Source: Hydractinia symbiolongicarpus
Taxonomy: Eukaryota; Cnidaria; Hydrozoa; Anthoathecata; Hydractiniidae
Direction: 5' to 3'
Length of the DNA stretch: 64,000 nucleotides
Assembly (NCBI RefSeq): GCF_029227915.1
Contig: NC_079876.1
Span: forward strand, 32,285,828 to 32,349,827
Made by a program: the position numbers and the translations under genes. The stretch's first letter is position 1; each line of letters opens with the position of its first letter. Shown one piece after another: positions 27,501 to 57,997 of this stretch. A model generated the notes under the pieces. It had not been told where the DNA came from, made no database searches, and saw only the letters and a program-made list of their open reading frames with translations.

Positions 27501-27574
27501 CCTACAATAACATGTAAAAGACAGATGAGAAGTAATAGTTTAGTGATTCAATGTAACAAGTGTTCCAGTTCCAT

Positions 27575-29886
<2,312 letters not shown>

Positions 29887-32070
29887 TTAACTAGTTAGTC
29901 CAATTTCTTTCAACCTTTTATTCTTTATGTCATCGAACTTTTTCCGCTCGTTGTTTATTTTTGTTCGCACAGCGAAGGCAAAATTGGCTGATCCAAAGTA
30001 ACTTTTTGCAAAATTTTCCATTTCCAGTCGACCTAAAATAATGCAAGAATGATTGAGTATACTCGCACAAAAGACACAAAATAGTTGCTTTAAGCAACTA
30101 TGCCTCATTTGCAAGTGATTGTTCAAACAATCTATTTACCTATACTTAAAAACCATCGAACAAAAGCTAAATTATTTGATACCTGGAAATGGTCGATCAT
30201 TGGTGCGACGCACGTAACAACCAAATTTTTCGAAGAACACTTTATTTAATTCCGGAGTCCACTTGACACTGGATTTGACAGCTAAGTATAAAAGCAACAA
30301 TAAGATAAGTTTTGTTAATATCAAACCTAAAAAAGTGGTTTAACTAAACCTATATATATGAAGAAGCGATAAAAGTGTTCAACTTACGTTTGCATTTCAA
30401 TCTCTCATTCTCTTCTTTATCTATTGGAATAAAATCTGGTTGTTTTTTAAACTAGAAAATTCCTGGAAATTATAACTCTTGGTTAGCAAGACGACCATTC
30501 AAACTATTATTGCTTTAACAGAAAAAATATTGTCCTTTATAACTTATATATAGCAGCGTTTTTATACTATGGCAACTCAAAAATCAGTAAAGTTAATGAC
30601 ACTTGAAAGATCTAAGCATTTTTCAACATATTTAATCTCCAGGATCATTGGAAAGTTGAATTTCTGAGAGAATTTAAGATTGGGGAAGACGCCAAATTCT
30701 TTAAAATCTAATTTGCACACGAAGCAACCTACAAAGGTTTCTTTAAACTTAATTTTTTACATCACTTACCTTCATAGGAAGTAGGATCACATGAATCATC
30801 TCTAATTTGGGCATCTAGATAGAAATGGATATTCATAAACATGAAATACATCTTTTGCAAAAGATACTTGTACATCCCATAAATTTTAAACAATCCAGGT
30901 TGATATTTCTCGGTATATAAATAATTTTCATAACTGTCTAAGTGTTATTGAGAAAACTAAAATAAATAATTAAAACAGAAAGACTCTTGAAAGGATACTC
31001 ACCAGTAATTTTAACGTACTTTTTTCTTTTTTTTGATCTGCCTATAATTCAAAGTCAAATGTACAATCAAATGGTCAACAAAAAATACATTTTTATTTCG
31101 GTGAACTCGCAATTACTTTTAAGTAAGTGAAAAAAAGTTAAGTACATGTAATTTGTAAAAATATTACGTTTAATATTAGTGATACTAGACAATTTTCCGC
31201 AAAAACGTTAAGTAATATATTTTGCATAGAGGACTATAAAAACAACTTATATTTCATATGATTTTTAATTGACCTATGTGAGATTTAAAACAAATAAGGT
31301 CTGGTTTTCAAATTCAATGTTCTATAAATAAACATTTCCCACAACGCAGAGTAGGACAGGTTGAATAAATATTGTTTGACAAAAAAATCAAAACTCAAAC
31401 CACTCACCACGCAAAGGATACTTCCTAGCTTCAACTGGTACTAAAAACAAAAACAAAACAAAAAAACCATCGTATATCTAAAACAAGGTCATGGTTGGTA
31501 TTATAAATCAGACGTTGTTTTAAATTAAATTTAAAACTAACCATTTTTTGATTCAATAGCTTCTTCATCCGATGAACTGCTCGACAGCATCATCACTCTT
31601 TTCCCCACTGATCTTTTTGTCTTTGTCGCTGAATAAAAAACCAAAAAAAACAAACACTTTGCAAGTCACTGAGGCCCAAAGGATTGAATCAATAAACTAC
31701 AGTGAAGTATTAACCTTCAGCTGATGTTCTTACGGGAGTACTTGTCACTGCATAGTTAGTTGCCAATTTCTTGTCTTCTAAAGAAAGAAAGTATTAGTCT
31801 GCTATGTAGTCCATTGAGCAGCTTTAAGGTAATTTTCCAAACAATATAAAACAATGATGGGGAAGATCTTTAGGTTTTGGATCACACATTGCTTTGAAAA
31901 AATTTCATCAAAAACAATGACTAATAAAAAGAACAAAATAACGAGTTTTGTAACTAACAGAAATTTTCTCTATTTGCACCAGACAACATTAGAAAAAGCA
32001 AACATACCTGTATGAGTTTTGTCTTTAAATGTTTTTAAACTTTTATCAGTTTCTTCAATATGACCGTTAT
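29887..32070 (-). CDS. C-terminal small exons and SANT-like end of the fusion gene
   Basis: Nine or ten exons of 33-146 bp joined in phase 1. They encode basic and serine/acidic segments (KTKRSVGKRVMMLSSSSDEE, a likely nuclear signal and CK2-type acidic patch) and finally VKWTPELNKVFFEKFGCYV... and RLEMENFAKSYFGS, a Trp-containing helical unit resembling the SANT/Myb-like tails found in related proteins. Stop TAA at 29887-29889. The exon 31041-31004 has an A8 run: with nine A it would keep phase and encode a lysine-rich RSKKKKKYVKIT segment. Confidence 0.7.
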
Positions 32071-35000
32071 CTATAAACAATCAAGTTATAAACACTGAAA
32101 GACTTGCTAATCATGAAAAGTCATTCTACATTTTGCTCATCTGCAATCTTTTAATAATTTTTTAATGAAATCAAATTTGGAACACGTATTATTTCGATCA
32201 TAATAATCGTGAAATAATATTAGCTGATTTGAACATTTGTTAATACATTATAAGAAAAAATTAAACAAATAAATGAAATACAGTGGTTAAAACGACAAAA
32301 ATTTATAAAAAAAGGTTTAATAAAACATAACCCGGCAAGTCTTCCATTATATCCTGGTTTCCTAAATCTCAATAAACAAGAAAAAAATTAAATTTACCAC
32401 TCATGATCTATGATAAAGTTGTTACCTAGAATGCGTGCCACTTCCACAATTTTATTCCATACAGAAAGGCTCCTCCCTAACAAATAAATACATACCGCTT
32501 GCATGGAGATTTATTAATTGTTTTCCAATCTTTGTGACTCCCATTAAAGCTAATGGGGCTTGATAAATATCTTTATTCATGCTTTCAGAATGACCCATAT
32601 GGGCGTAGAACAGTTGTCTTTCCTGTTGTGGCAGGTCCAACGCAGCATATAAAGTGCTGACGCGGTGTCTATTAGTGGTTGCATTTATAATTTCCACATT
32701 GGTAAGTTCTAGTTTCTTACAGACTTCTTTCAATGCATGCCAGCCAGACACATTTAAAGATGACAGCTGTGTGCTGGCAAACACAAAATCATTATTTTTA
32801 TCGATACCAGCCTTGATTCTAAATTTTGGATCAACTAACCTTTTCATAGCAGAAGTAGTGTCGTTTGGAAATAAAACAGACACCAAATGATGATTTCCTT
32901 TACCCGTCATGTAGGTTATTTTTAGTGAACTCACTAATAGTTTGTCAGCTTCATTCAAACTCTGAAGACGTTGTTGATCAATCCAATTATCGCTTTCTGC
33001 TTCTAACCAATCTTTTACTAGGAGGCGACTTGTTTCCCCACCACGGCGCCCATTCAATAATGTTAGTCGTGTGAGTACTAAGTTCCTCAGTTCAACAAAA
33101 GAGTGAGCAGTCCATAACTCAAAAACACACAGTAGTTCACCCATTCTCTTGAGAATATGTTGATGTATTTTCTCAATGTCGCTTTCCAAAGGCAACTGAC
33201 ATGGTTTTCTTATTTTAACTAGCCTTTTTTTTTCAAGCTCGTATCGTGCAGAGGAAACCATGCAATCCTCGTTGGCTTTATAGCATACCATAAATTTTTC
33301 GATTTCACTGGCCTCCTCTTCGTTAGCTAACATATATTGATGAGCATACAATATTTTTACACTTTTGTTGATGATGTAAAAAACATTCTGGCGTAGTCCT
33401 GGCTTAAGACTACGATCAACATTCAAAGTAACAGCGTCAATGGCATCAGTAAAACACGTAAAATTCTTTCGCACAAACATATCTAACAAATTACCATGAT
33501 CATGACAAACGCCATTCATCCTCTTAAAAGATTGGTACAGGCTACCTAACACTCGCATATGACCCCTAACAGATTTATTCACGGTGGCTGCTTTTTCTTT
33601 TTTGACTACAAGCTTTGCAAACAACTTCATTCCAATTCGTAATATCATTTCATCTTTGCGACATATATTTCCTATTATTAAACAAGGCAAATTAAATTTT
33701 CAAATATTTATTTTGTGTTTAAAGGTTTAGAAAATTAAAAAAAACATTATTTGCATCAATTTTAATGTACAGTGGAAGGTTGTACATTGAAATAGATGTT
33801 CTTAAACCTTTGGGGGCGTGAATACAAATTAAATAAACCTACATTTTTTTTCTGTCAAACATTTGTGAGTATTTATTTTAACGAAATAAACTTAAAACCT
33901 TTTGAAAACATAATTTTATGAATTAGGTCAATAATCTAAAAGATCAATTCATATATTTTTTTTAAATTAAACTACAACTTTAATTGAACACTTTTTTTAC
34001 TATTTCGCTCATAAAAAACAACAAAAAAATGTTACACTTGATCATATCCAGGATGTAACATGATTATGTTTATTAAATAATTATTTGAATGAATTAAGGA
34101 TTTCTATGAAATACATAAGGACTTTTAATGAATAGTACAAGTATTTTTTAACTCCTTAAATCCCAGAAGTTTCCTTTGCAATTTTTTATTATTTTTGATT
34201 ACTGTAGTTATTCGTAATAATTTAATAAAGAACAATGAAAATTTCATGAATTGGTAACAAATGTGAAGAACAGGGATGTTATCACCATAAAGCTGTCCTA
34301 CAAATCAATTGCTAAACTATGAACAAGTATGGAAAAAAGCTCGTAACGTAAATATAAAAATGATAACTTACCTACGGGATCATCTCTAAGCTTGGCCAAA
34401 ATGACTTCCTTGAATTGATCCGACATTTGGAGTGACATTGGAAGGAAGTCCAGTGACAATGGCAAGCCTGTTGGGACAGCATCTTGTCTTCTCATGCACG
34501 TTCTTTTGTGGCTGGCAAAGAAACGCTTAGAGATAAAAGCAGAGCATAAATTACAACGTTGCAATTCCAAGTATTTCTTTCTTTGACGTTCTCCTTGGAA
34601 AATAGGATTTTCTGTGGTAGCTTGCAACTTGTTGTACATTAAAATTCCTTCCCTTTTAATTTTTTTCCATTCCTCAATTTGCTTCACCTTAGTCATCTTT
34701 AGTGCATTTTTCACTCTTTCATTTTCCTTATGACATTTTTTAATGTGTCTGCTCAATTTTGAAGACATTATAGAACAATAAATGCACATTCTATACGGTT
34801 TTTTGTAAGGACTTTTTTTCTGAAATAAAAAGATAAGATGATTCTAGAATTGCTACATAACACAAAACATAAAGCCTTGCATCAATAATCCTAAATTTAA
34901 ATAAAATAGCATTGGAAAGTATTAATCAGTCAGTAGTATATAAGTTTACACAATCTTAAAATGCATCGATAATAGTACCTGCAGTTTTTTAGACTCGGCT

Positions 35001-38000
35001 TCAATTGTTTCCTGTTCACTATCAGTATTCACAATGTCTAAATCCTCATCAATCTCCAAACCAGAATCATTTTTCACTGAAACCTGTTTGTGTTAAATAA
35101 TACTATTGATAATTAAAAATAATAAATTAGGAAGCAACTTGTTGGTAGTTCAAAAGGGCTGAACAAATCATTGTAAATTAAATAAGCATCATCACAAAAC
35201 TCACTTGTTCACAACAGCTGACTTCCCTAATGGTCTGCGTATGTTCAGCAACTTGACACACCTGCAAAATTTCCAGATATAAAAAAAGCTATGCAAGGAT
35301 GTATGAAAAGTTATTACAAACATACAATACCTTTGTCGATGCTAGAGTTTCTATTTCTTCAAGATCAACTTTCATCTAACATTAATAAAGAGTAACTATT
35401 AGGTGTATTTAATTATTACTATTGACCGTAGGACCTAATGGAATTGATTTTGGACTTTGACCTTATAAATGCAGGAGATGAGAAAATTGGACTCCCAGAA
35501 TTAACATTCTTCTTACTTTGGCATGAATGCTGGAACTACACTACATATTGCTTAAATTAAGTAATCATTTGGTGGTGCATGCTTTATTACCAAGTCATAA
35601 ACATCAGACAACTGACAAAACAAGTACTTTTAAAATAAATTTTTAAAAAAAATAAAAACAAAAAAATTGAAATTACATGCCTTCAATGCACAAGGCAAAT
35701 TAAGCAAGTTTGGGTCAAATCCGAGAAATTAAATTCTAACAAAATGTCAATATTTCATGATTTTCAACAAAAGTTCTACAAAAATAAGTTTTCAACCAAT
35801 AAACCATTCAATTGGCGTTAAATGGAAAAGTTACTGAGCACAAAAAAAGATTTGGTTTTATAAAATCTAATCTTTTAAATTTAATGATTTTCTGAATAAA
35901 TGAAGAATTTCCTATAATTTTCTCTAATTATAACCAGTGCATCACAATGTAACCTTTGTAAACCAAAATTAACTGTCAGGTAATTTTACCATGAAGTTAA
36001 TTTTTCATTTTTTCACTTCAACAATTCATAATTTTCAACATTTAGGTAAATCGATGACAGTATATTTTAGCAGCAAAAAAAAACATGAAAATTTTATTAA
36101 CCTGAACTAACATTTGCTGAAAATATACCGGCATTTGTATTAAATTTAAATTAGAAATGCTGCAATGTAAAAAATATATGAGTAATGATGGAATACATAC
36201 GAACTTCTCCAATACTTTTGTCTAAAAATAAAATAGCATCAATTTATTACTATAATTATCATACCGTACAACTTTCTAGTGGACTCCAACTACACTGTAT
36301 TCCAATAAAAAAATTGTGCAATGTCTTTATAGCATAATTATAACGGTAATAGTCTAAGCATTTCTTATATTAAATCAGGTGCTATCTATATCTCCTCCTC
36401 ACAATTCAAAATCTTCAAAAATAAAAATGTACATAGGTAAATCTTTATTATATCGCAATAAAGATTCACCTATGTATATGCACCATCCCGATAAACTATC
36501 TAACATATTGCCGTAGTGTGGTGTAGTGGTTTTGTCTTTGGCTCCCAACTCTAGGGTCCGGAGTTCGAATCCCACTCGCTGCCTAGCAGTATGTTAGTGA
36601 TGAACAAAATAGTTCTTCTTCATTATAACAAAAATGTATATGGGAGAATTCTAACATACCAGTGTTTCAGTTTTGTCATTTCTAAAAAATAAACATAGAA
36701 ATATTACAACAAAATTATCTTTAAAGAACTAAATAAGTTACTTTAATTTCGACTAAAAAAGCATTGTTTACGTCGTTTACAGCAAATCTCATGTGAATGA
36801 CACCATAAAAACACCAATTTTTCATAGTTTCGTTTGTAATATTTTATCACTTTTTGTAATATTTGAAAACAATAATTACCTAAAATTAATTTTTAATGGA
36901 AAAGTTGTTTCTTCATTACTACCATTCAAAATGGAACACTAAAAAATGAATAGAAAGTTTAAAATTTTTAAGTATTATTAGTGGAATTACTGGACCTTCA
37001 ATACTTACTGTTTCGCTGTCAGAACTGCTGAAATCAGGGACAATTTCAATTTCCTGAAACATAAATATTTATCATCAATACAATTAAAAATTATACTTTA
37101 AACGGAATCATGAATTGCATACATACCGGATAAGTAATTTTTACATCATCGTCACTACAATCCAGCTTGGCAAAATCTATGTCCTTGTAGTAGTCTGCAA
37201 ATTTATCTCCACCAATGACATTCTTTTTATTTACACCACTGCCAATATTTTCCTGAATCTTTTTTTTTGATTGGTAAGTACTGTTCTTGTACGTATTTAC
37301 ACCTGATGCAACCACATCTGCACTCTTGTAATTTCGACCTTGGACACTGACAACATCTGCAATGATCTCAGCAACTTGTTCTTTATTTTCACAACCTATT
37401 TTCATATCCTGTATACCAGCAATATTCGTTTCCTCAACATTCTGTCCATGTAGAGGTTCATCACCACAATATCTGTCCCCTTCGTTTGATTCTACTTGTG
37501 TATAAACAGTAGGATTATCCACCTTATAACTCACACTACCAGCAACACGATTGACCAAAACTGCATCTTTGCCTTCACCTACACTTTGATTGTGTAAACT
37601 ATCAGAATTATTGCCCTTGGGTTCACATACATCAACAAAATCAAGAACCTTGTCATTAGTGACACTTCTATCTATAACACTGACAATATCTGTAATGATT
37701 TCAGCAGCAACTTGTTCTTTATTTTCACCAACTATTTCCATATCCTGTATGATAGATGTGTTTTCAACATTTTCTTTAAGTTGGAGTTTATGAACACAAT
37801 ATTTCTCCCCTCCCATATTTTCTAATTGCATGTAAACAGTAGCACCATTTGTCTGATAACCACCATTAAAACCTTTGCATTTAATATTTTCCTCTACTTC
37901 CTCCTCTAATTTTTCACACAAATCAACATTCTGACCATTGATAGCAACTGAATCTTTTCCATTGCCTACGTTTTTACTATATAAACGAACAGGATCGTTA

Positions 38001-41000
38001 TTCTTGGGTTCATATACATCAACAACATCAATAAACTTTGCATTCACATCATCTTTATCTTTTACACAGGTGTCAGATTTTAGTTCAATACTTCCGTCTT
38101 TTTTCCAAACAACTACTTGATCACATTTTTCTTCGTCATTTTCCCCATTATCTAAAACAAATAGATCAGGTAAGGAGTATTCAAAAGTAAATAACATGTG
38201 TATAATACATATATATTGCAGTTCAGGGTGTATGCTACTCAAATTATTCAGAAACTTATATTTTGTTCAGTTCATGTTTCTAAACTATTTAGTTACAAAT
38301 TTAATATTGCTTCTGGATTTTCCTTTCTTAACCAAGTTGTAATATCTTTGTTTAACCTTTTTCATAACATCCCAAAGAAGAATGAGATTAATTTTCCAGA
38401 TGGACCCTCCTAAATAAATTTATCATGCATAAGTTCTATTTGAATTAAATCAGTCAAAACAGTATCTACAGAACCCAGAACCTATAGTACAGCATAAAAT
38501 AGATAAGTGTAAGCAAATTAGGAAAATAATGTTATAATTACTGGAATTAGGCACTTAAAGTGAGACCATCCATAAAAATATGTCTGTTTTCTGTAACCGA
38601 CACATTAAAATATCTTAACAGCTAGGTAGGCGATAATATTTTTTACATAAAAAAAATCAGTATCATATTGTCATATTTTTGACATTCTGCGTAAAGCATG
38701 TGAAAATCTGCATGACACGTGAAAATAACAAACCTAATAAATCAACCTATAAACCTAATAACATAACAAACAAACCAAATCAGAATTTAATTAGATAAAG
38801 AGTGTGAATTAAAATATTTACACTGATTATTTCAAATTATATGGATTTGGCATACAATGTGTATTTATAATTCATAAACTTTTTGTACTTATAACACTTC
38901 ACCCAGCCATTTTACCCGAAACAAACACATTTTTAGAGATAGCATGGGAAAGGGTGTTACGTAATTGAGAAATTTTCACACATTACAAACCTATCACTTC
39001 TGTTTGAAGAATGCAATCATGAATCTAATAAAAATAATTCAATATTTTTAAGATACATGTAACGTTAAAAACAACATAATTAAAGTATATATCTTACCTT
39101 GTCCAGACATTCCTTGACATCTTCCTCTGTTGTTGCACTACCAGAAATGAATTCATCATCCTAAGTGCAATATTAGCAAAAAATTACTGTACAGTAGAAA
39201 TAATTTTGTTTTATTTATGGGAGTGATTCTCAAAAATTATCTTTGTGCATGTTTCGTCTATATGGAGGAGCAAAAGATTGCTTTATAAGCAACATATTTT
39301 TTGTTGTATGGTAAAAACATAAATATTGTGCTACAGTTTAACTCTTGTTATTAAATACAAAAAAATTGAAATCGATAACATATTGGTTAAACAAATCATT
39401 TTCAAAAATTGGATAAAATTAAGTCATTTTGACACATATCAGAATTCCAATCTTAAAAACTACACAACATAAAATATTTAAATGAAAAAGAGAAAATGAA
39501 AATTGTGGATATATAACTGATTATAACTTAAAATTATTTCAAAATGACTTGTACAGTAATTAGAGCTAATATCGTGAAAGCTTTTCTTCAAAATTAACTT
39601 TTTAGTATGGCTAATAACAGGAACCAAAACGTGGACATCATGAAAGATTACAATATTGATACAAAAACATTTTGCCTTAAAAATGTAGATGGCTTACATG
39701 TTCAGAATAAATCTGCTTTTTTTGGTTATTCTAAAATCACAAAAAAGGTTTTATTATAAACACAAGAATTTTTTGAACAAAAAGTTCAAAATCTATGATT
39801 GGATACTCACAATTACATTCCCAGGATTGCATAAAACAAACTGAAAAGAAAGAAAAGAAAAATAGCAGTTACTCTAGTGAAGAAAAAGAAAAATGTATAT
39901 ATTACAAAAAAACTTACTCCCTGCTTGGTAACAACATCAATATTTGCAAAATATGGTGAAGCAGTCTCCTTGTTCTAAACATAATAGAAGTAACAGTTGA
40001 AGTTCTCAAAAAAAATTTAGAATATTTTTTTGTATTTTTCAAAAAAGAATCAAAAATAATTATTGTTAAGGCGACTCCAATGTTCTACGGGAGAAATCGA
40101 TAGTAACTTACAGTCGGTTGGCAAAATAAAAATAATTTTATTGAGAATGTATGGTTGGAACAACAACAAAAATAAAGAAATACACACTAACAACAGCGGT
40201 TAAAAAATAAAAAAATTCAAAAAAATCGTTTGTAACCGTTTTAACTCGCTTGGTTGATTTGAAATTCATTTCGTAATCATTTCCAAATCATTTTGTATTC
40301 ATTTCCCATTAGTTTTTCACAAAAATAAGAATTAATTCGTTTCATCTACGTTAAATTCGTTTCGGTTCAAATTGTTTTAAAATCGCTTAAATTGTCACAC
40401 ATGTTTATAAGACATTGTCAATTTCTAAAGAAATTTAACTATCAAATTACGTAAATAACTGCATTCTTCTTGCAGAAATAATAAAATTCTTCGCTAAAAA
40501 CGAATATGTAACAGATTTTCTGTTAAAAAAAGTTTTAGCCGATATTATTTTTTTGTTTTCGTGAAAATTAGAGTCTGTCGAGCCTGTAGAACAACTAATG
40601 AAGTTGAAGTCGCCTAAAAGTTACAAAATGAGAAAAAATCTGTGTGTGCTCAAAGTTAAAATTCCTCAAATATATTTAATCTGTATGATAATTAAGGAGT
40701 TTTAAAATTCCTCTAATATATTTAACCTGTATGATAAGTAAGGGGTAACTAGGGTAATAACTAGGTTCTGCAAAAACACTTTACCTCTATGTTTAATAAA
40801 ATATTCATGACTTATTAATTATTCACAAACATAACATTCCTTTAGCATGATTTTTGCAGTGCAAAATTTTTGAATTGCATTTTCTCGAAATAAAATTTTC
40901 CAACATAACAGTACATAGTTTTGTTGAACACTCCCCTCCATTTTGTCGAAATTCTACGAAAATAAGTTTGTTGCGACAATTTATTTGGCTACAAAACTTT

Positions 41001-42413
41001 GCTTTTTTTAGCGCAAAAGTGAGAAAATATCGAGCTATTGATCCATCATATACTTAAAAATTGATCAGTCATAAAACAGCTGTTGTAAAACAAAATATGC
41101 TATATTTTTTGAACCACGTTTTGTTTTGAGTAAAAAAAGCAAAGTTATTTAGAGCTGAATAAGATCTTTGCAACCATATGTTTTTCAAGAAACAAAAATT
41201 TTACTGAAGGGAGTGTTTGGTAAAATATACTAGAAAGGTGAATTTTTGTAAATAATTTTTCCTTCTTGGATTTTTTTATGGAAATATTTTATCATCATTC
41301 TAGAGATAATTTATTTGGCTTTCAGAATATATATATATATATTTGTTACAGTTAATAAAGCAAGCAGAGAAGATATTTTAAATATACTGAGAATGTGTCT
41401 AAGGGGGTTACCGTATCCTTAATGGAAGTTGATGTCCTTTAAAAGGCATTCCAGGAATGCCTTTTTAGAGGACAATTGCATCGCGTAACTTGGTGAACTG
41501 GCGTATGTGATTGATCACATAAGCACCTATTTTTAAAATGAGAAGCCTGATTCATCACAACTATAAAATCTAACTAAAAAGAAATAACAAAAAAGTGACA
41601 AAGATACTCACTTTTCTCCAAAAAAGTTCTTTCATATCTCCATACGAATATCTCAACTCTTCTCCAATAGATATGACTTTGTCACACAAAACAAACAGGC
41701 AAAGATGCAAATGCCCATTATCATCATATATCGGTTTCATGCAACAGTTTTTGGCATTTTTGCTGTCATTAACGTATTTCCCAAACTGTGTGTTCTCAGT
41801 TGCATCGATGCTATTATAAATAATCTTAAAATTGCAGTATATTACCTAGAGTACTTTTCAAATTTCACAACTGACTTTTGTGACAATTTTCCTGAATATT
41901 TTATGAAAATCAAATTTTCCATTTTTCTCAAAAGAAAATATTTTTTGCCGGCATTTATTTGCAAAAAATTATCCTGTGCTCTTTACAAAATTCGTAAATA
42001 AAGTTTCTTTCCAACAATCTTTACGCAAGTAACTGCTGTGGATATTAAAATAATCACAACATATATGTACAATTTGCTTACCAACTGTTATTATAAAAAA
42101 ATAAAAAGGAACCAGCTTCATCAGGATATGTAGATTGCAATTTTTCACCCTCAACTTTACTAATACAATTTCCAGCATACTCAAGAAGAAATTCACCATG
42201 TTGAAATGTTTTTGTAGCAAACACTCCAAAACCTTATAAAAAAAGTTGTATCATAATAATGTAAAACAGTTCACACCCTATTTGGAAGCATAATAGACGT
42301 ATACCTATGTTGTCATTGATGAATAATTTCTGGAAACCACTTTGATCTGCTTTTTGTTTGCAATAATACTTTGCAATAGAACGTGGGTCTGTCTCACGCT
42401 TATTCTGTCGTCT
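29887..42413 (-). CDS. SET domain - zinc finger - tyrosine recombinase fusion gene, at least 22 exons
   Basis: Exons (minus strand, order of translation): 42413-42305, 42232-42082, 41810-41612, 39974-39918, 39840-39811, 39160-39098, 39024-38991, 38151-37127, 37053-37009, 36221-36201, 35375-35331, 35261-35205, 35083-34979, 34819-34372, 33671-32496, 32070-32008, 31777-31715, 31628-31542, 31440-31408, (31041-31004), 30814-30770, 30420-30388, 30281-30183, 30032-29887. All introns are GT-AG and the phases agree: phase 0 from the end of the SET domain to the zinc fingers except one phase-1 junction, then phase 1 to the end. The exon at 31041-31004 is 38 bp and breaks the frame unless skipped. Protein of about 1.5 thousand residues; stop TAA 29887-29889. 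The first exon was not found. Confidence 0.85.
32496..33671 (-). CDS. Tyrosine recombinase (Crypton-like) domain exon
   Basis: 392 codons. The landmarks of the tyrosine recombinase/integrase catalytic domain appear in order: box I arginine in LTLLNGRRGGETSRL, the beta-hairpin lysine in YMTGKGNHHLVSVLFP, box II in NATTNRHRVSTLY (Arg and following His kept, the first His of HxxRH replaced by Thr), and HMGHSESMNKDIY with the last His and the nucleophile Tyr. The N-terminal 190 residues are helical and would be the core-binding domain. Cryptons and host genes derived from them are the nearest group I know. No stops or frameshifts. Not an integron or phage integrase: it lies in a spliced gene. Confidence 0.85.
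34372..34819 (-). CDS. Zinc finger exon of the fusion gene
   Basis: 149 codons. First finger CIYC...H..CH (CX2CX9HX4H) in a context LSRHIKKCHKE, then the helix KQIEEWKKIKREGI, then CNLCSAFISKRFFASHKRTC (CX2CX11HX3C). The final LRDDPVG is joined to the recombinase exon through a split Gly codon. Such paired fingers would be expected to contact DNA or protein next to the recombinase fold. Confidence 0.8.
36431..36475. repeat. Hairpin, 19-bp arms with 7-bp loop
   Basis: acataggtaaatctttatt and aataaagattcacctatgt are complementary with one mismatch around atatcgc. It lies in an intron of the fusion gene, just before the tRNA-like repeat, and may be the end of a small mobile element. Confidence 0.7.
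36510..36590 (+). repeat. tRNA-derived SINE head or tRNA pseudogene in an intron
   Basis: An A box (tggtgtagtgg) and a B box (gttcgaatccc) at normal spacing, but poor acceptor and anticodon stems, so not a working tRNA. ctaacatattgc before and gcagtatgttag after form an imperfect inverted repeat around it. Confidence 0.5.
36660..36681 (-). other. Exon-like decoy excluded from the fusion gene
   Basis: AG before and GTATG after a 22-bp block, but including it in phase 0 gives an immediate TGA, whereas joining 37009 to 36221 directly stays open. It could be a poison exon. Confidence 0.3.
37127..38151 (-). CDS. Large acidic linker exon with internal duplication
   Basis: 342 codons, rich in Asp, Glu, Asn and Val, without a known domain. 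It contains two diverged copies of about 125 residues: DVVDVYEPKNND matches DFVDVCEPKGNN, VGNGKDSVAING matches VGEGKDAVLVNR, and VGENKEQVAAEIITDIVSV matches GCENKEQVAEIIADVVSV. Probably a disordered spacer between the SET and recombinase parts. It joins the preceding small exon by a split Asp codon and ends before GTATGT in phase 0. Confidence 0.75.
40070..40614. mobile_element. Short TIR element in an intron
   Basis: Ends aggcgactccaa and ttgaagtcgcct are inverted repeats with one mismatch, about 545 bp apart; tgttctac also occurs inside both ends. No coding capacity. Boundaries and target duplication are uncertain. Confidence 0.45.
41441..41465. repeat. Perfect 25-bp palindrome
   Basis: aaaaggcattcc-a-ggaatgcctttt forms 12-bp arms. 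It lies in an intron of the fusion gene, about 150 bp downstream (in transcript sense) of the last SET exon. Confidence 0.7.
41612..42413 (-). CDS. KMT5A-like SET domain (three exons)
   Basis: Pre-SET helix DPRSIAKYYCKQKADQSGFQ leads into GFGVFATKTFQHGEFLLEYAG, CIDATENTQFGKYVNDS and GEELRYSYGD. The CIDAT and ELRYSYGD blocks are specific matches to the KMT5A (SET8/PR-Set7) class, which monomethylates histone H4 K20 in the nucleus. The three exons join in phases 1, 2 and 0, restoring G-F-G-V and C-I-D-A-T across the junctions. The tyrosine block is conserved, but the cofactor/catalytic NHS motif reads NDS. The domain may therefore be inactive or altered. Total 153 residues; the N-terminus lies in an unidentified upstream exon. 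Confidence 0.85.
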
Positions 42414-42637
42414 CTAAAAATAAATACAAAAATGAACAAATAAAAATTGAAGTAAATGAAAAGTAGAATTTCACCCTTTGGCAGCCAGGTCACTTTTTTA
42501 TTTTTTTCAAGAAACGTAGATGTACTCTAAAGAATCACAAATAAAATTCCTTTCATATAGTAAAAAAATAATTTTACTAAATTAAATTTAAATTTTACAA
42601 AAATTTGAATAAATTTTATGTTACCTAAAATTATTTA

Positions 42638-43041
42638 AAGGTTACCTCCCGCGAAAAATAAAGGTAACGGCATATACAAGTACTTGAAAGGCTGTCTAGG
42701 AATTTGAATATTTTTTTAAAAATTCTTGATTGGTTCTTTAGAATTTGGACTAAGAAGATTTACTAATTATGCATGATGACAAGCCATAGAGAGTTAAAAA
42801 TGTTTCCTAGCCATTCACTTTGACGCGTTTTGAACATTTTTACATAAATTTTAACATTTAGTTATCATAATTATGCTCAATTCATACTCATGGCATCATA
42901 ATTTTGCATAATTAGCACAACTTTTAAGACAAATATCTCAGAAACGGATAAAGATTTTTCAAAAAAATAAAAGGATTTCTAGAGAACTTTCAAAGATCTT
43001 TCATATGAGCTTAACTTAATTTTTTGCGGGAGGTAACCTTT
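42638..43041. mobile_element. 404-bp TIR element
   Basis: aaaggttacctcccgc at the left and its exact reverse complement gcgggaggtaaccttt at the right, with 370 bp of non-coding AT-rich interior. A typical MITE by size and structure; family not assigned. Confidence 0.75.
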
Positions 43042-43042
43042 G

Positions 43043-43864
43043 AGGTGGCAGTAACCCTTTTTTAGCTGTCCAAATAGCTGAATTATTTACTCAGTGTTTT
43101 ATTTATACCATTTTATTTTACTATTTCCTAGAAATATAGGCCTTAATACATAAGAAAATGATTTTAACTTAACACTAAAATTGCTGAGTCAGCAGAAATT
43201 TCTTTTTAAAAATGTATCAAAAACAAGAAAAACTTTTTACAATCTCGTTATTTTTCATCAACTTCTGTTTTTAAATGAACCTTGGGTTAACCCTGTTAAA
43301 ACGGTGTGCGGATTTTTTTTGTTCATTCTTATTTTTTTAACAATAGCCTTTAATCTTTTTTCAAAAGATTTTTTGTTAGCATCCCCTGCTGCATCAAACG
43401 CTGTTAAAAGAAAAATATCGCGAATAAAAAGATTTCCGCACACCGTATCATGGCTGCATGATTCACCAAGCATGTCTGAAAATTTTAAAGTAAAACGAAC
43501 ATGCTATTGAAAGTTACAGCTTGTGCAATGTAGCATAATGAAGATCGTCTTAAATTTCTTCATAATGCGCCATCTTTGTTGTTATTAACGTTTCTCTTTA
43601 ATAATTACATCATTTCTTTCTGTACAATTTCACAACCACGTAGACTTAAACTATACTCGGCAAAACTAATTAATTATTCATGAATTTTATTTTAAAGAGG
43701 AATTTTTAAGGCTAAATATTTTTGTTGAAAGATAATAGTATTATAGCCATAAAATCGTGACAAGTGTGTTATAACAGAAAAAATTGGATTATAAAGTCTG
43801 AAAATAACCTTACGTAACCAATTATGTAAAAAAAATCCGATTTTTAAAAGGATTACTGCCACCT
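43043..43864. mobile_element. 822-bp TIR element directly adjoining the previous one
   Basis: Left end aggtggcagtaaccc and right end ggattactgccacct are inverted repeats with one mismatch. Inside, on the minus strand at 43258-43473, is an exon-like ORF (FDAAGDANKKSFEKRL, VKKIRMNKKNPHTV) after a pyrimidine tract and AG. It could be captured host sequence or a transposase relic; I do not recognise it. Confidence 0.6.
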
Positions 43865-45530
43865 TAAAATAATGTTTTATTATTGTAATAACATATACAG
43901 TACCGCTTAAATGTACACAAGTTTTAGGATCTCATGTCTCATTTCTACATAAATATCTTTTATTCATTACCTCTTTTGTAGACTGCGTAATTGAAGAATT
44001 AAAAACAGCGCTCCATTTTTTGCGTTTTTATTTCCATGTGATTTCTTTGAATAATATTACTCGCTACAGTTTTATTTAGGAGCTCGATTGTTCACGCACA
44101 TAAGGAATAAGTTCGTATTTTATGCGAGTTATTATTCACTTGTCTAACACATTTTAGGACCGTGCCAAGGTGCATGCGCGCGATCGCGCACCTAATATGA
44201 GGCAGTCTGCAAAATCATTTTTATACATCTTAAATAACGAAACGTTGTGGTAAAAAAAAATAGTTAGGTGTGATTCACACTGGCTAATATTCACATTGCA
44301 CTTGTAAATTTTGCTTACAAGTGCGATTTTTTGCACTCCATATAGCACTGGTAATTTTTTAGCGGGTGCTTTTTCTGGCTCTGGCCTGACATATTAGAAA
44401 AGTTAACTCATTGTGGGTATTAAATGTGTGTTTTTGTAAAATAAACTTCACACAAAAATCATTGCTACCTGTTTTGTTTTGTCTTAAAATGTTTGTATGT
44501 TTTTTTGTGTCATAAAACAAACGATACAAAGTACATTATATACTTCGTTATGCTAAACGAAAACAATATTAAGTGCTTTGTTTAAAGTAAAAAGTACAAA
44601 CGAAGTCCATACAAACTTTTTTATAACATGATACAAAATGTTTTCTTGTAACTTAAAAAAGGAATATGGCCACGTTAAAGCTTTGTAGAGACATTTTCTC
44701 ATCATTTTAAAAATAAATACAACTTTCAAGCTTCATAGAGACGTTTTCTCATCACTTTAAAAAGAAATATGGCCACGTTAAATATATAATATATATGTAA
44801 ATATATGGTAGTATAAAGACAAAGTGATTTTATGCCAAATACAAGTCAAAATATAGTACGTTTATATTAAGCCTGTTAAGTATTACTTATAATTTATTAA
44901 TTATAATCGAATAATTATTCTATTGAATTCTTCACCACCATCATTTGCATGGTGAAATTTAGCCCATAGTAGGATTAAGTACTTTTTTCTACAAGAAAAA
45001 AAACTTACTTTTGACATTGATGCAAACTTTTATTTATTGTCAATTTACCTAGTAACAAAGATTTAAATATGCTAAACATGGACCATAATATATTGTTCTG
45101 TTTCACATGAAAACCTATTACCATAATCAACTTTTTTTAACATATATATACATAGATATTTCAGGGTGTTTGTAGTTGCGGCAATCATGTCTCAGCTGAA
45201 TAGAACCAACCACAATAATTTACAAAATGATTAATTAAATGTGTGAGTGGGTCAGGAATACACAGCGGGGTGCAACTTACCGAAAGAGATTCAGGAGAGT
45301 TTACTGTATTTAAAGAAACTCCTAATTTTGCAAGGAAAAGACTATACATTTGTTTAAAAAATTAAGCAAAACATATACTTTTTTATTGTAGTAAAACATC
45401 GTTACTATATCTGAGCATCCCACAAACTACCAATTCAGAAAATCAAATAATTTATGACAACATTAATTTATCAATCAAAACAAGATTTGCTTAAATTTGA
45501 CGGAAAACATAATTCAGATATACTGTGATA
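43865..45530. other. Intergenic, one short tandem duplication
   Basis: At about 44661-44785 a block with tatggccacgttaaa and gagacgttttctcatcac is present twice about 62-100 bp apart. Otherwise AT-rich sequence without supported features; the first exon of the fusion gene could lie here but was not found. Confidence 0.4.
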
Positions 45531-45787
45531 GTATTGTTCTGCCCAATCTTAGGAGACTGCCCAATATTTGGACATAAAAATGCCCAGTTCGTCAAAAGAT
45601 TAGGCAGGAGACCATGGATGTGACACACAAGCTCTGTTGTTTGCAAGACCCTACAAACATTCTCAGGCACATAAAAATATATTTGGGGTATGTACATCAA
45701 AAACGAATTTGCCAGTACTGTTGAATTGACCAGGCCAGATTTGGCTAAGACGGGGGCCGTTTCAAGATTGGGCAGAACAGTATCATT
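45531..45787. mobile_element. Approximately 255-bp inverted-repeat element
   Basis: gtattgttctgcccaatctta at the left (45531-45551) and aagattgggcagaacagtat at the right (45763-45782) are inverted repeats. Short, non-coding; probably a small non-autonomous DNA transposon. Confidence 0.6.
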
Positions 45788-46849
45788 GGGAAATTAGCAA
45801 GATAGTTTGATGATATTGTTTTCGAAAACGCTGTATTTGATCCAATTTGATCAATAGACATATAGTTAAAATTGTAATACTATTCTCACTTCAAGGGAAG
45901 GTTATATTTTTTGTGGTGAGTCAATAAATGTAAGCTTGCTGTATCAAGCTGGTTTCTAATGTCTGACATCAAGCAATGACAGATGAGCATTAAGTGCACA
46001 AGAATATGTGCATGATTCTGTGCAAAAATGCAAATTTGGACCAGAAAACACACACACATTAAGGTTCCAGTATTTTGTGCAATTCAAACAACCATATTTC
46101 AACCATGACAATATACAGTAGTAAAAGCTGTTGATGTGTGCAAACTGAAATTGAAAGCTATGACCTTGACCAAAAGAATAATAAGGCGTCAAATAAGAAA
46201 AACTGTTTTTACACTCAGCTATGCTAGCTAGCTATCACAGTGAAGTTAGTTTTAGTCAAATTCACAAGAAAATAAAAGAAAACAAAGAAAGTAAGAAACA
46301 GAAAATAAAAACACAAGAAACTTTGGCGGCTCAAAGCGCGAAGAACTTTCCCGCATCCAATATATGACGTAATGTTGGTCAATACTGCTACGCTATTGGT
46401 CAACAGTTTTTGGTTGCCTTTATATATAAATGGCGAACATAGTTACGCTAAATTCAGCGGTGCCTGGAGAAATTATGAAAAGGTATATGGTTACAATAGA
46501 TTACACTTTGTTTTGCCCTCGAAAGGACATGGTCAGAGAATCTATATACTTTAAATTTTTAAGTTTTTAGTTCCTAGTTACGCCTGTGTATGTTAAGGGG
46601 TTTATAATCTTGGGTAATTAGATCATTTTAATTTGTTGTCTTACTTGTTCAGTTATTTTTGTTAATGTTTTTTAAATTTCTTATAGACTGAGCAAGTTGA
46701 ATTTTGTAAACAAACTTTATGTAGACAGTTGTTTCATAAAAATGGAGTGTAAAGGTTTTAGCCATATAGCTGTTCTGCCTGGATAATGAACATTATCCAG
46801 GCAGAACATATCCAGCCTGATTAAGTAGCTTGCCCTGGTTAAAAACAGG
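45788..46849. other. Intergenic; possible plus-strand first exon at 46432-46480
   Basis: tttatatataa followed by ATGGCGAACATAGTTACGC and a GT donor-like site (aaaaggtatatgg) could be a promoter and first exon, but no following exon was recognised. The rest shows nothing. Confidence 0.25.
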
Positions 46850-47570
46850 GCAGGAAATACATAATCAGGGCAACATAATCAGGACAGGCCGGCTTATTAC
46901 TCAAAAAATATTATTTGGCACTTATAAAAGGAACATAATCAGGTCAGGCCAGATTGTGTACGACAGTCTAATATTATTTCTCACTTATTATAGAATGAAC
47001 ATAATCGGGGCAAAGGTGCCGATAAGCCGCAAACGCCCGCATATATAAGGGCGAGTTCGGGCGACTTTTCGAATTAAATTGACGGTTGTCCGCCGAAACC
47101 GCCTGCACTTTCCTGAACTCGCTCGAAACATTCCCGAAATGCAACACCTTGTAACATAAACATGGCGGACGACAATTGAAAGAACACGCTTGAAGAGAAA
47201 GGAGGTAATAAAGTTTATATATAAGTTATTTATCAAGTAAATCTTATCAAAAACCATAAAAAACATTTCTTTTAAGAACTTAGCTTCCATATAGTTAGTT
47301 CATTTTAATTTTTATACTTTTTAAATAATTCTTCGAGAGTCATTTATGGTGAATCTTTTTTTTTTCTCGGGCATTGTTCGGGACTATGCGGGTTTTTTCG
47401 GGCAAAGACCTGAATTTTTTTTAAAACGCCGAACTCGCCCGAAAACGCCCGCACTTTTTACGGCGTATGCGGCTTATCGGCACCCTCGTGGGCAGGCCCA
47501 CTTATGTATGACAGGCAAATATTATTCTTTATTGAATTTCCGTGCCCGCAGGCGTAGGAAATTCTTTAAA
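46850..47570. repeat. Three tandem units of about 66-75 bp, the third split by a TIR element
   Basis: Units begin acataatcagg and contain aggcc...acgacagtctaatatt; they start near 46861, 46931 and 46996. The third resumes after 47484 with gggcaggcccac and gacaggcaaatattatt. Confidence 0.65.
47015..47484. mobile_element. 470-bp TIR element, GC-rich ends
   Basis: Both ends begin ggtgccgataagccgca in opposite orientation and continue with related aacgcccgc and gggcgagttcggg words. GC content is clearly above the surroundings. No coding. It interrupts a tandem-repeat unit. Target duplication not clear. Confidence 0.8.
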
Positions 47571-47684
47571 ACCGTCGTTTTTTTCTTTCGGAGCATTTTT
47601 TAAGAAAAAATCGACCCTGGAATTTCACGTTCCTCCGTCACAGATTCAAACTTCTTACCCAAGCTCCCTAACTACTTGGAAGTC

Positions 47685-47945
47685 ATCTAAATGACGTTTC
47701 AGGCCAAAATCGGTATTTGTTTTCGACAAAATTTGGCACAGTTAACAAAAAAGTGTGCTAAACATAATGGTGACATAATAATTTTGATTTTTGTCACCTA
47801 AATGTCATTTTAGGCCAAAATTGGTCCAAAAATTATAACTACTTTATTATAAACAAAATTTGGCACAGAAAAAAAGTATGCTGAAAATGATGGTCACATC
47901 AAAATTTTGATTTTTTGTCAACTAAATGCTGTTTAAGACCATAAA
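47685..47945 (+). repeat. Three diverged tandem units of about 115-120 bp
   Basis: Units start ctaaatgacgtttcaggccaa, ctaaatgtcattttaggccaa and ctaaatgctgtttaagacca, and share caaaatttggcacag and aatggtgacat-like words. Non-coding. Confidence 0.75.
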
Positions 47946-48210
47946 CGTTTCAAGCGCAAGACTTTTAACTATGAATGATAGGCTGTAATTTTGTTAGCAA
48001 TTTCTTTTAAAATGTGAGTTTATTATGACACGTTTCGTTTTGTTTGCGTTTGTTTAAGATATAATGTCACATGTGTGCTTTATCTTCAGAGCTTAATGCA
48101 CCAAACCTCTTCGAATGTCTGGCACGATAACACAACGAATTAGCAGGTTGTCATCAAATATTTTGGTAGCGAGCGGAAATTCTTAGAGCCCCCAGGGCTT
48201 CTTGTATTAT

Positions 48211-48480
48211 GCTTCAGAACAAGTCCATTGACGTCTTTGAAGGAATTCATATGATTGATGCCTTAAAAAGTGCTGCCATAGCTACCCGAAATCGGTTGAT
48301 GCTTACCATGACATTTGGTGTTAGAAAGCTATATTTTTAGCTCAAAAAGTGTGTTACTCCTGCAAAATCTGGGACTTGTGGCCGTCAAAGAAAGAGGTCC
48401 AACATTCCTGCTGATAACATTTCAGAATATTTCAAACGGACAACAACTATTCCAATGTTGGTGCTGGAGTTTATTTTTAA
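48211..48480 (+). pseudogene. hAT/ZMYM1-type transposase fragment
   Basis: In one frame from 48211: MLQNKSIDVFEGIHMIDALK, then a TAG near 48338, then CGRQRKRSNIPADNISEYFK and TTIPML. The CGRQ..RSN.PA....EYY...IPFLD block is characteristic of the TTF/zinc finger MYM-type (hAT-derived) transposase family. About 90 codons survive. Confidence 0.5.
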
Positions 48481-49419
48481 GTAAGATGCGCTCTCTCATC
48501 AAAATTTAAGTGAATTAATTCAATAGTAAGGTTATAATAAAATATTGGTAATAAATAGTAAAAAGTAATAGTAGTAGTGTCGTAAATAATTATATAATAA
48601 GAAATACTCTCCCCTTTTTTTTGGTGATGACAAACCTGCTTGATTTCAAAATGTTCCCCGGGCTCAGTAACTTCGCTGACAGTACCTGGGTCAAGGAGCA
48701 ACTAAGTTTTTTTCTTTTCTCCATTGATGATTGCGATTGTGATTGCTATAATGACATGATTAATCCATACCTTCCTTTTGTTAAATTTTTCACACATAAG
48801 TTATATACAAATTGTAACAAAACAGGGTAGCTGTAATGATAATATTTTTGCAAGGATTTTTTGTAAAACACTGACCATACACTGTTGTATGGTAGTAACA
48901 AAACAGGTAGCTGTAATGATAATAATATTTTTTAAGGATAAATACACTTATTCTTAGCGTTTAAGTCTTATCATTGAATTCCTGTGCGTGCAGATGACAG
49001 AGCCCCTCTCTTTGCTTCTCTATGTTTCTTTTCTTGCCTACCGGGCTCGGCATGACTCCGGCCGACAGTACCTGGTTTCTGGAGCGGCAGTATGACTGTC
49101 CATGTTGGACTTAACAAGCTATATTTTCAATATGTTTTTCGTTTGTCCTACAGGCATGCTGACGAGCCCTGACATTGGGGGAAACAGTCTTATTTATTGC
49201 GGTGCAGAAGCGATTGCGAAAATATTCCTATTCTGTCATACCTGAGGCCTTACAAATTAAAACACTTATATACGCATTGGTTGCGTAAAACACGCAAAGA
49301 CCCGAAGCAGTGTTTTTTTTGTTTTTTTTTTACGCTTTGACATAGTAAAAAAATTGCCTACATCCGTGCCTGGCGAGGTAGTACGACCTTTAAAAATGTA
49401 GGTTGTATAATTATAAATG
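48481..49419. other. Intergenic, one short duplication
   Basis: aaaacagg(g)tagctgtaatgataat occurs at about 48820 and 48897 (a 75-bp tandem duplication). Nothing else supported. Confidence 0.4.
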
Positions 49420-49678
49420 GACTGCATCAAATTTCTATTTTGCAGAAATAGGGCACACAATTTATTTGTAGTGTTGAAACGTTCCAGATTAATTTCAATG
49501 TGCAATTGGATTTAGAATAAGTATATATACACCATTTTTCTACTTTGTAGAAACAGGGCACACAATTTATTTTTTGACTTGAAACATTACAGGTTATTTT
49601 GATTTGTGCAACTGTGGGCTGTTATATTGATTTTTCTATTTTTGCAGAAATGGGGCACATATATTTTTTGACTTAAGG

Positions 49679-50081
49679 CCAAGATTCACACACGGAAAAC
49701 GTTCCGCGGACCGGACCGGATCAAACAAAAACAAAGCTTTGCCCATGCACATTGTTAGCTCATTACGCAATCGAAACGGAAAATTGTGCAGTCCGAGAAG
49801 CTAGAAGACAGTTGAAATGTTTTTAACTTTTTTTCTGGTCCGCGAAGCGACTAGCATTTTTGACCAATACCAAGCTACAAAATATAGCCAAGTGACATCA
49901 AGAAACGACCGGCAGAAGCAAGCACATGTTTTTTATCCATATTATGTTGTTATTATTGTCGTAGCAACGTAGAAATTAATATTCGGTCTTTAACGTACTG
50001 GAACAGAACGGAACGAAACAGAACAGATTTTTATCGTTATCCGGTTCGGTCCGTGGAACGTTTTGCGTGTGTGGATACTGG
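49679..50081. mobile_element. 403-bp TIR element inside the satellite
   Basis: Left ccaagattcacacac...aaaacgttcc..cggaccg and right end (reverse complement ccagtatccacacac...aaaacgttcc.cggaccg) form about 45 bp of imperfect TIR. The satellite words ttttttgactta and aaacgttac lie on either side; acttaa/actttaa could be an imperfect target duplication. GC-rich ends contrast with the host array. Confidence 0.75.
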
Positions 50082-50959
50082 ACTTTAAACGTTACTGGTT
50101 ATTTTGACTTTTGCAGATGCATTATAAATAAGGCCGTATCAATTTTTTTATTTTGCATTACTGAAGCATACGTATTCTATTTTTTGACTTAAAATGCTAG
50201 AGGTTGTTTTGATTTGATCAACTGTGTTACAAATCATATTGCATCGATGTTTCTATTTTGCAGAAATGGAGCACACATTGTATTTTTTAACTTAAACGTT
50301 ACAGGTTATTTTTATTTGAACAACGGTGTTATAAATAAGGCTGTATCGATTTTCCTATTTTGTAGAAATGGGCCACACAATTTATTTTTTGACTTAAAAC
50401 ATTACAGCTTGTTTTGATTTGTGCAACTGCAGCATAAATAAGAATATATTGTTTTTTTTTCTATTTTTGTAGAAACGGGGCACACAACATATTTTTTGAC
50501 TTGTAACATTACAGGTTATTTTGATTTGTGCAAATGTGTTATAAATAGGCAGTATCAATTTTTCTGTTTTTACAGAAATGGGGCACACATTCTATTTTTT
50601 GTGTTGAATCGTTATAGATTAATTTCAATGTGCAACTGGATGAAGAATAAGAATACAACATTTTTCTATTTTGTAGAAATGGGGCACACAACATATTTTT
50701 TGACTTAAACGTTACAGGTTATTTTGAGTTGTTCAACTGCGTTATAAAAGGCAGTATCAATTTTTCTGTTTTTACAGAAATGGGGCACACATTATATTTT
50801 TTTTTTACTTAAACGTTGCAGATTATTTTGACTTGTGTAGCTGCGTTATGAATAAAGGCTGTATCAATATTTCTATTTTTTCAGAAATTGGGCACACATT
50901 CTTTTTTGTGTTAAAACATACATCTTAATTTCAATGCGCACCTGGGTTTACAATAAGAA

Positions 50960-51470
50960 TTATACGAGTATAGAACCAACATTGACCAATTTAATTTTGT
51001 ATTGACAATATATTTCGATCTTCTAAAATCATCTTCAGGTTTAAAATATATAAAAACAAGATTAAAATCCGTTATATAAAAAAATGTAAATTGCGTATCA
51101 CTCCTTTCTACAGTAAAAAAAATTTATCAACAACCGAGTAAAAATTCAAATGTACAAGAGAAAAGAAAATTAAACAATTGACAAGTCTCCCATGAGACAC
51201 TATCCGTATAAATCAAAATAATTAAAATTTTATTACTAAAGTATGGCTTTTGTATTCATTCTTAGTGTTTAACTTAGGACGTATATCGTTAATAATCAAA
51301 GCTTCAAGAGTCTCTAGATGATGCATTGACTTCGTTGATGATGCTAAAATATCTAAAATTATATAAATAGAATGAAATAAAAAATATAAAAATAAAAGTA
51401 TAAAAATAGAATAAGTAATAACTAAGTAAGTAAGATAAGTAAATATTATATAAATAGGATAAAAATGCAC
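50960..51470 (-). mobile_element. Insert in the satellite resembling a Penelope-like element terminus
   Basis: Interrupts the array. It includes caatatatttcgatcttct and atcatcttcagg, wording often seen in terminal regions of Penelope-like elements, and PLE RT fragments are present at 58.5 and 59.5 kb. It has no coding part here. The assignment is tentative. Confidence 0.35.
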
Positions 51471-54398: not shown

Positions 54399-54752
54399 GG
54401 CGCCGTAGATTAGTGGTTTCAGCTCTCGTACTCTGTGCGGGAGACCGGGGTTTGATTCCTCTTGACAGCGATTCAACATGGGCGAGTGAATGTTACCATA
54501 GCCCCGGGTTAACCCAAGCCATGTGAGGGAAATTGGGAAGATGGCACACTGTGTGGGCCGTTGGATGTTGCTGGGATTGTCTATCAGAGCGCGGGCTCTA
54601 ATTGGTCTGCTTAGCTCAAAATGAGCATTAAATACTCTAGGACTCTCCATCTACGCCATGGCCCCTCCTGGAAATAATAGACAGGGTATATCCCTCGATA
54701 TTTGTGAGGCTAGCCATGTAAAATATGCACATCTATCTATCTATCTATCTAT
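54399..54752 (+). mobile_element. Full-length tRNA-derived SINE with (ATCT)n tail, inserted in the satellite
   Basis: tRNA-like head with A box (tagattagtgg) and B box (ggtttgattcc) at 54399-54475, a body of about 250 bp, and a tail of about five ATCT units. It sits between gtgcaactct and gttatgaatagggctg, which are contiguous in every other satellite unit. The pol III boxes imply internal transcription. An open stretch on the minus strand through it is not a gene. Confidence 0.85.
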
Positions 54753-55145
54753 CTGTTATGAATAGGGCTGACCTTTTTTTTTCTATTTAACAGAAATGGG
54801 GCACACAATTTATTTTTTGACTTATAAAACGTTGCTGGTTATTATCTCTGTGCAACTCTGTTTGTGAATAGGGCTGCATCTTTTTTTCCTATTTAACAGA
54901 AATGGGGCACACAATTTATTCTTTGACTTATAAAACGTTGCTGGTTATTATTTCTGTGCAACTCTGTTATGAATAGGGCTGCACTTTTTTTTTCTATTTA
55001 ATAGAAATGGGGCACACAATTTATTTTTTGACTTATCAAACGTTGCTGGTTATTATCTCTGTGCAACTCTGTTATGAATAGGGCTGCATCTTTTTTTCCT
55101 ATTTAACAGAAATGGGGCACACAATTTATTTTTTGACTTATTTCT

Positions 55146-56880: not shown

Positions 56881-57000
56881 CGCTAAGTCCTTACCAACAT
56901 CTTTTTCCAGTATTTGAAATCTATGAATATGAGAAATTTACGCTAAGTCGTTACCAACATCTTTTACCAGTATTTGAAATCTATGAATAGGAGAATTTCA
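56881..57000 (+). repeat. 60-bp tandem duplication
   Basis: Two copies starting cgctaagtc at 56881 and 56941 with only a handful of differences across exactly 60 bp each; a recent local duplication. Confidence 0.95.

Positions 57001-57994: not shown

Positions 57995-57997
<3 letters not shown>

Follow-up and report, generated by a model that had tools for sequence, protein, structure and literature searches.

A predicted SET-zinc finger-tyrosine recombinase gene in a 30-kb mobile element of the hydrozoan Hydractinia symbiolongicarpus

On the minus strand of a 64,000-nucleotide stretch of the Hydractinia symbiolongicarpus genome (NC_079876.1, positions 32,285,828 to 32,349,827; hereafter the window, whose own coordinates are used throughout), a spliced gene appears to join a SET domain like that of KMT5A to zinc fingers and a tyrosine recombinase. 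The question raised by this locus, left as an either/or by an earlier note made from the sequence, is whether such a gene belongs to the host or to an unusual transposon. The genome searched for its relatives comprised 480.9 Mb in 76 contigs, including 13 large ones of 11.5-42.6 Mb, and the exon encoding the recombinase occurs there ten times at 99-100% identity, its copies being spread over seven large contigs (two each on C1, C2 and C7, one each on C3, C4, C5 and C6). The common ends of these copies, beyond which the flanks are unrelated, delimit a whole mobile element of 30,041 bp (27868..57908, minus strand). The unit carrying the gene is supported as a transposon and not a host gene because near-identical copies are dispersed, share exact ends and adjoin a common kind of target. 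Very probably, as far as the sequence allows us to judge, we are dealing with a recently active DNA transposon of about 30 kb, whose single recognised gene would encode a SET-zinc finger-tyrosine recombinase protein. A host chromatin gene with a domesticated recombinase would agree with the constraint on the domain exons described below and with the expression of KMT5A-like genes at Hydractinia genome activation (as presented in PMC10368294), but it is contradicted for this copy by dispersed copies at 99-100% identity with exact ends and unrelated flanks, several of them broken; rejected on the strength of the dispersed near-identical copies, it appears extremely improbable.

Since the gene reads on the minus strand, the 3' end of the element is position 27868 and the 5' end position 57908. 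The 3' terminus is sharp (CTTCTTTATTCC at 27868) and adjoins an (AT)n microsatellite in all eight copies in which the terminus was read, the tract measuring 295 bp in the window (27573..27867) and 52-184 bp in seven further copies (in L045 the retrieved sequence stops within the tract). Two copies are without this terminus: the one on C6, which ends at its contig, and a truncated one at C1:27.67. Genome-wide, the terminal 200 bp at the 3' end matched nine times, each match being complete from base 1 and none partial, and no flank-to-flank similarity was found at this end among the seven copies compared. The 5' terminus (CTTATAGAC at 57908) adjoins (AT)n in four of five copies, namely the window, where the tract lies at 57909..57995, and L052, L053 and L054. 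Both microsatellites are probable target tracts, and the window holds two (AT)20+ tracts only, each flanking one element end. Any short direct repeats of 4-6 bp, such as fungal groups of Cryptons have at their ends, would be masked by the AT tracts flanking the element. In the five copies for which the two ends were both read, the length is about 29.5-32.2 kb, a spread probably due to an internal satellite array of ~105-bp repeats (49429..55285), which seems longer in the C1:23.48 copy. In addition, two small contigs (G000:C67:1466 and G000:C47:3373) hold a SET exon and a 3' end belonging to this family, which may be parts of an eleventh copy.

Short motifs lie just inside both ends, GTCACCCTAAC at 57886..57896 on the plus strand, 12 bp inside the 5' end, and GTCCCCCTAAC in inverted orientation at 27882..27892 on the minus strand, 14 bp inside the 3' end. 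The pattern GTC[AC]CC[CT]T[AT]A, which was derived from the same element ends, is present at six places in the window, five of which lie less than 300 bp from the ends, and its outermost copies point outward in inverted orientation. Comparison of the outermost 45 bp at either end shows a common 11-bp motif only, and no long inverted repeat. Near the 5' end stands a 15-nt inverted repeat with a 6-nt spacer (57814..57849), a geometry known from the core sites of recombinases. Motifs of the form GGGGACA...TGTCCCC, like this subterminal inverted repeat, were also seen in the flank immediately beyond the C7:12.86 copy (L041), perhaps belonging to another related element. Three points tell against the boundaries and target as drawn here: the 5' end of L051 is not next to AT; the outermost motif pair is weak, being equalled by 157/20000 shuffles and by 162/5000 random interior pairs; and it is conceivable that the AT tracts belong to the element itself.

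The gene was reconstructed as 27 exons lying between 42413 and 29887, every acceptor being AG and every donor GT. The multi-exon gene with fitting phases described before (22 or more exons) is thus borne out and enlarged, and the four junctions singled out at that time (42305/42232, 41612/39974, 34979/34819 and 34372/33671) are all present in the spliced model. The spliced frame counts 4,287 nt and 1,428 codons with a lone terminal stop at 29887, while the two alternative frames of the same spliced sequence contain 91 and 170 stops. A first model of 26 exons, whose frame was broken after exon 10, was discarded when a missing 59-nt exon (36938-36880) was located in the sequence; without this exon the frame breaks.

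The predicted protein begins with the KMT5A-like SET domain, in which NDS replaces NHS (exons 1-3, 42413-42305, 42232-42082 and 41810-41612, together 41612..42413), followed by an acidic linker of low conservation (exons 4-16, 34979..39974), whose exons lie at 39974-39918, 39840-39811, 39730-39698, 39160-39098, 39024-38991 and 38151-37127 (exons 4-9) and at 37053-37009, 36938-36880, 36681-36660, 36221-36201, 35375-35331, 35261-35205 and 35083-34979 (exons 10-16). Exon 9 (1,025 nt) is open over 341 codons and in phase, and the other linker exons were placed by splice sites and phase. Exon 17 (34372..34819) bears two zinc-finger-like motifs, CxxC...HxxxxH and CxxC...HxxxxC, read by eye and without Pfam match; exon 18 (32496..33671) holds the catalytic region of the recombinase, recognised by its aligned motifs; and nine short exons (19-27, 29887..32070) make up a C-terminal tail that had no Pfam match over the cut-off. 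Fish proteins named KMT5A-A-like presumably have a similar tail. The extent first proposed, 29887..42413, covers the coding part, but the gene does not start at 42413 and the real unit is the mobile element at 27868-57908: the TAG of the acceptor directly before exon 1 is a stop in the reading frame, and an additional 5' exon is therefore needed. Preferred among five candidate ATG exons, on phase and donor, is a tentative first coding exon at 45009..45017 on the minus strand, encoding MSK and ending in the donor AAA/GTAAGT.

The fusion of SET domain, zinc fingers and recombinase in one predicted protein, inferred at the RNA level, is supported because the open frame is kept in six copies and because the order and strand of the domains are kept in divergent families. 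Both the reading frame and every splice site are preserved in the window and in five other copies; the remaining four show one changed acceptor (C4), a frameshift (C5), a partial gene with a stop in exon 17 (C6) and truncation (C1:27.67). In three copies the codon differences from the window number 0, 0 and 1. The element is young and probably recently active. When the window was compared with the C3 copy, which belongs to the other subfamily, changed sites were fewer in domain exons (4/2691) than in introns (66/8230, p=3e-5), and four comparisons of domain exons with introns, not independent of one another, gave p=1.9e-5 to 4.4e-3. For the SET exons alone the difference from introns was not significant (1/459, p=0.12), which counts against the explanation given here.

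Across the genome, all three SET exons stand upstream of the recombinase in 8/10 near-identical copies, the C6 copy retaining SET exon 1 and part of exon 2 and the truncated copy none. Of 29 SET-recombinase pairs within 20 kb, whose recombinases show 28 to 100% identity to that of the window, 28 have the SET domain upstream on the same strand, and this arrangement is frequent also in divergent relatives (28-56% identity). With a fuller SET list, it was found in 34/38 pairs and at 34/85 recombinase loci, against a mean of 0.5 pairs in crude random shifts; three of the four discordant pairs lie in decayed-looking regions of C1 and one involves the SET domain of a neighbouring element on C10. The loci represent at least 11 families, separated by identity and distance, within which copies are not independent, and the lists are lower bounds. 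In four other families (L020, L022, L026 and L028) similar zinc-finger motifs precede the recombinase within a single open exon.

The transposon might instead carry two neighbouring genes, one for the SET domain and a separate one for zinc fingers and recombinase, never joined in one protein. Thirteen linker exons, short except exon 9, do separate the domains, and the linker is not conserved above the level of introns (10/1596 vs 66/8230, p=0.29); likewise, 51/85 recombinase loci are without a same-strand SET domain upstream within 20 kb. Of these 51, 21 extend over more than 900 bp and some look intact (e.g., C7:29500396); the lists being lower bounds, SET-less relatives may exist. These observations count against the fused protein. 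On the other hand, a single open frame runs across the 27 exons and is kept in five further copies, exon 9 stays open and in phase over its 341 codons, and the Hydractinia and sea urchin gene models discussed in PMC10368294 are similar both at the N-terminal SET domain and at the C-terminal end. Two separate genes consequently appear unlikely, and the single predicted protein is the reading followed here.

The assignment of exon 18 was approached through five families from the same genome, with 41-49% identity to the window recombinase. RRGGE, NRHR, GHS and the YQ containing the tyrosine are invariant in 5/5 families, and GKG is present in 4/5. In a profile alignment with eight named tyrosine recombinases (XerD, a partial XerC, FimB, FimE, IntS, IntR, lambda Int and Cre), residues 193-371 are in register with the XerD catalytic domain, and the box I Arg, the hairpin GKG, the box II Arg, GHS and the Tyr at position 369 of exon 18 each fall on their XerD counterparts. 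The alignment scored 32.9 (p=0.0016), a value reached in 0/300 column shuffles (best 25.0), the reversed profile scoring 16.6. The recombinase motifs reported before at this end of the gene thus align within five families and co-linearly with known enzymes, and exon 18 is predicted to encode a tyrosine recombinase, its catalytic residues occurring in the order and spacing of the superfamily.

Several results count on the other side of this assignment. The hhalign probability of the alignment was 15.7%, plain hidden Markov model searches between the two recombinase sets were weak (best 4.0 bits), and pairwise hhalign with Cre or lambda Int alone failed to align. The first His of the box II HxxR, aligned to the XerD His, is Thr in 5/5 families. 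Exon 18 had no recombinase match in Pfam, PHROGs or PDB, and its profile returned weak unrelated matches only from PDB and likewise from PHROGs; in the Pfam examination of the spliced protein proposed earlier, the SET domain was matched and the recombinase model was not. A single-sequence AlphaFold model of the exon, with pLDDT 35, was too poor to speak for or against the assignment. Separately, pattern searches for relatives yielded 95 candidates in viral contigs and 85 in prokaryote genomes, 0 of them confirmed.

At the other end of the protein, the SET domain, as had been noted from its motifs, is clearly recognised by Pfam (PF00856, E=2.7e-12), and in a PDB sequence search KMT5A/SETD8, an H4K20 monomethyltransferase, was the best match (E=4e-17), ahead of EZH2 and KMT2A. 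Unlike KMT5A, in which the domain is C-terminal, the element has it at the N-terminus, fused to a recombinase and in mobile copies, and the S-adenosylmethionine-binding motif NHS of KMT5A is absent, reading NDS. All four SET sequences aligned, from the window and three other families of the same genome (L003, L006 and L007), share NDS, and the change is therefore fixed and not a defect of the window copy. In SET8 the His of NHS matters for activity. A catalytically dead domain, whose role would be to bind nucleosomes or other proteins, has nearly even chances, a little on the doubtful side: NDS is found in all four aligned sequences, including one family without a linked recombinase, but the Asp is fixed rather than decayed, and the last Tyr (YSYG/YDYG/YDYC) and the other SET motifs are retained. 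Such a role would be compatible with the transposon proposed here.

A second multi-copy gene with a KMT5A-like SET domain was observed at L004, L005 and L006 (C1:30388925, C7:9286797 and C8:15973111), where the domain is followed by a DBF zinc finger in one open frame of 517-518 aa, also with NDS. At L006 the PDB match to KMT5A reached E=4e-22 and the DBF zinc finger PF07535 E=3.9e-12; no recombinase match was found within 20 kb of the gene at the three loci.

How the element would move can be sketched from its ends. The recombinase may bind short half-sites near both ends, and the element may be excised or copied as a circle by recombination within the flanking AT repeats. Closed through the AT tract, such a circle would place both terminal motifs around an AT core, its junction reading ...CTTATAGAC-(AT)n-CTTCTTTATT..., and it would integrate into another long (AT)n microsatellite by exchange within the AT core, so that no target duplication would be visible. 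The SET domain probably acts on nucleosomes and would place or protect the complex on chromatin, either by methylation or by binding alone; we do not choose between the two because the conserved NHS is NDS.

Alternatively, other machinery could spread the element, which would then be carried passively by a DDE or rolling-circle element, its recombinase playing no part in the movement. Certain endogenous nimaviruses are indeed described as inserting into (AT)n through a Ginger2-like DDE enzyme (PMC10871703). Against this, no further enzyme was recognised in the element: of its other open reading frames, at 42.5-57.9 kb, ten of 14 listed (81 aa or longer) were tested without a Pfam match at E 0.05, in a scan that would miss a gene of short exons, and the scanned frames contain no reverse transcriptase or RNase H. 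Rfam gave no match in 27000-60000. The ends, sharing just their 11-bp motif and no long inverted repeat, also speak against it. Passive spread appears decidedly improbable, and movement by the element's own recombinase is retained.

Outside the element, the window contains a nearly perfect (ATCT)231 tetranucleotide tract at 16646-17571, an open frame for a ubiquitin carboxyl-terminal hydrolase at 21140-22111 on the plus strand (PF00443, E=2.3e-32) and two reverse transcriptase frames on the minus strand (18618-19703, PF00078, E=1.4e-35; 9718-10323, E=1.8e-23). A run of long frames at 242-6466 on the plus strand resembles by eye a rolling-circle element with a helicase; three of its frames were scanned, with no Pfam match at 0.001.

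Among known systems, SETMAR (Metnase) is a host gene of primates in which a SET domain is joined to a mariner DDE transposase; the element is like it in joining a SET domain to a transposon enzyme and unlike it in enzyme type and in not being a host gene. The element differs from DIRS and Ngaro retrotransposons in the lack of reverse transcriptase and RNase H in the frames scanned. Cryptons, as characterised by Kojima and Jurka (2011, PMC3212892), are DNA transposons with a tyrosine recombinase and no long terminal repeats, are present in cnidarians, and in animals have neither a C-terminal domain nor terminal repeats. With them the element shares its enzyme type, mobile copies that encode a predicted tyrosine recombinase, and the absence of reverse transcriptase from the scanned frames; it departs from that description in its size of ~30 kb, its 27 exons, its N-terminal SET domain and zinc fingers, the (AT)n at both ends and the lack of a DUF3504 match. 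No recombinase or DUF3504 model was among the Pfam hits of five family members, a comparison that did not extend to the Crypton proteins themselves. The term Crypton-like used at first sight therefore holds for the type of enzyme and not for membership, to which the box II Thr, the size, the introns and the extra domains are also contrary: the element is a new variant of tyrosine-recombinase DNA transposons, and its membership in Cryptons is not supported. Some nimavirus-associated tyrosine recombinases, typically zinc-binding, go with insertion into telomeric repeats (PMC10871703), and the element resembles them in its predicted recombinase, its zinc-finger-like motifs and its probable insertion into a simple repeat. 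It is unlike the nimaviruses, which are endogenous viral genomes and in which insertion into (AT)n is associated with a Ginger2-like enzyme; the term 'SET domain' does not appear in that text.

Genes of this kind are probably already in print under another name. As many as 65 KMT5A-like genes, 22 of them activated early, are reported for H. symbiolongicarpus in a 2023 paper (PMC10368294), the corresponding numbers being 24 for Hydra and 61 for sea urchin. Most of the Hydractinia genes are described there as having an N-terminal SET domain, some being longer, and as dispersed and divergent, and the longer ones are similar at both ends between Hydractinia and sea urchin. The paper reads them as host genes for predicted H4K20 methyltransferases, and the word 'recombinase' is absent from its main text. 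The gene of the element resembles them in its N-terminal KMT5A-like SET domain and its dispersed, multiple copies, and it is from this match of architecture and number that we consider genes of the element's kind as probably already published as predicted H4K20 methyltransferases. No SET-recombinase transposon appeared, by title or abstract start, in the searches made of the open-licence PMC literature; the claim that no such fusion had been described therefore stands as far as these searches reach, with the qualification that the genes themselves were probably known as methyltransferases.

Taken further, and tentatively, since we rate it somewhat below an even chance, giant transposons with tyrosine recombinases may form a superfamily that is spread across animals and has gone unrecognised, one that acquired a KMT5A-type SET domain and applies it to chromatin in a transposition timed to embryonic genome activation, and the published H4K20 methyltransferases that are so numerous in Hydractinia, Hydra and sea urchin may mostly be genes of such transposons. 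For the element itself, a histone-modifying domain would be part of its own integration enzyme, offering a direct route to ask whether a jumping transposon marks or reads chromatin. The published result could also be read in another way, in that many KMT5A-like genes activated with the embryonic genome of Hydractinia may be transposon genes and not a chromatin programme of the host. Animal tyrosine recombinases would, moreover, gain (AT)n microsatellites as a further target.

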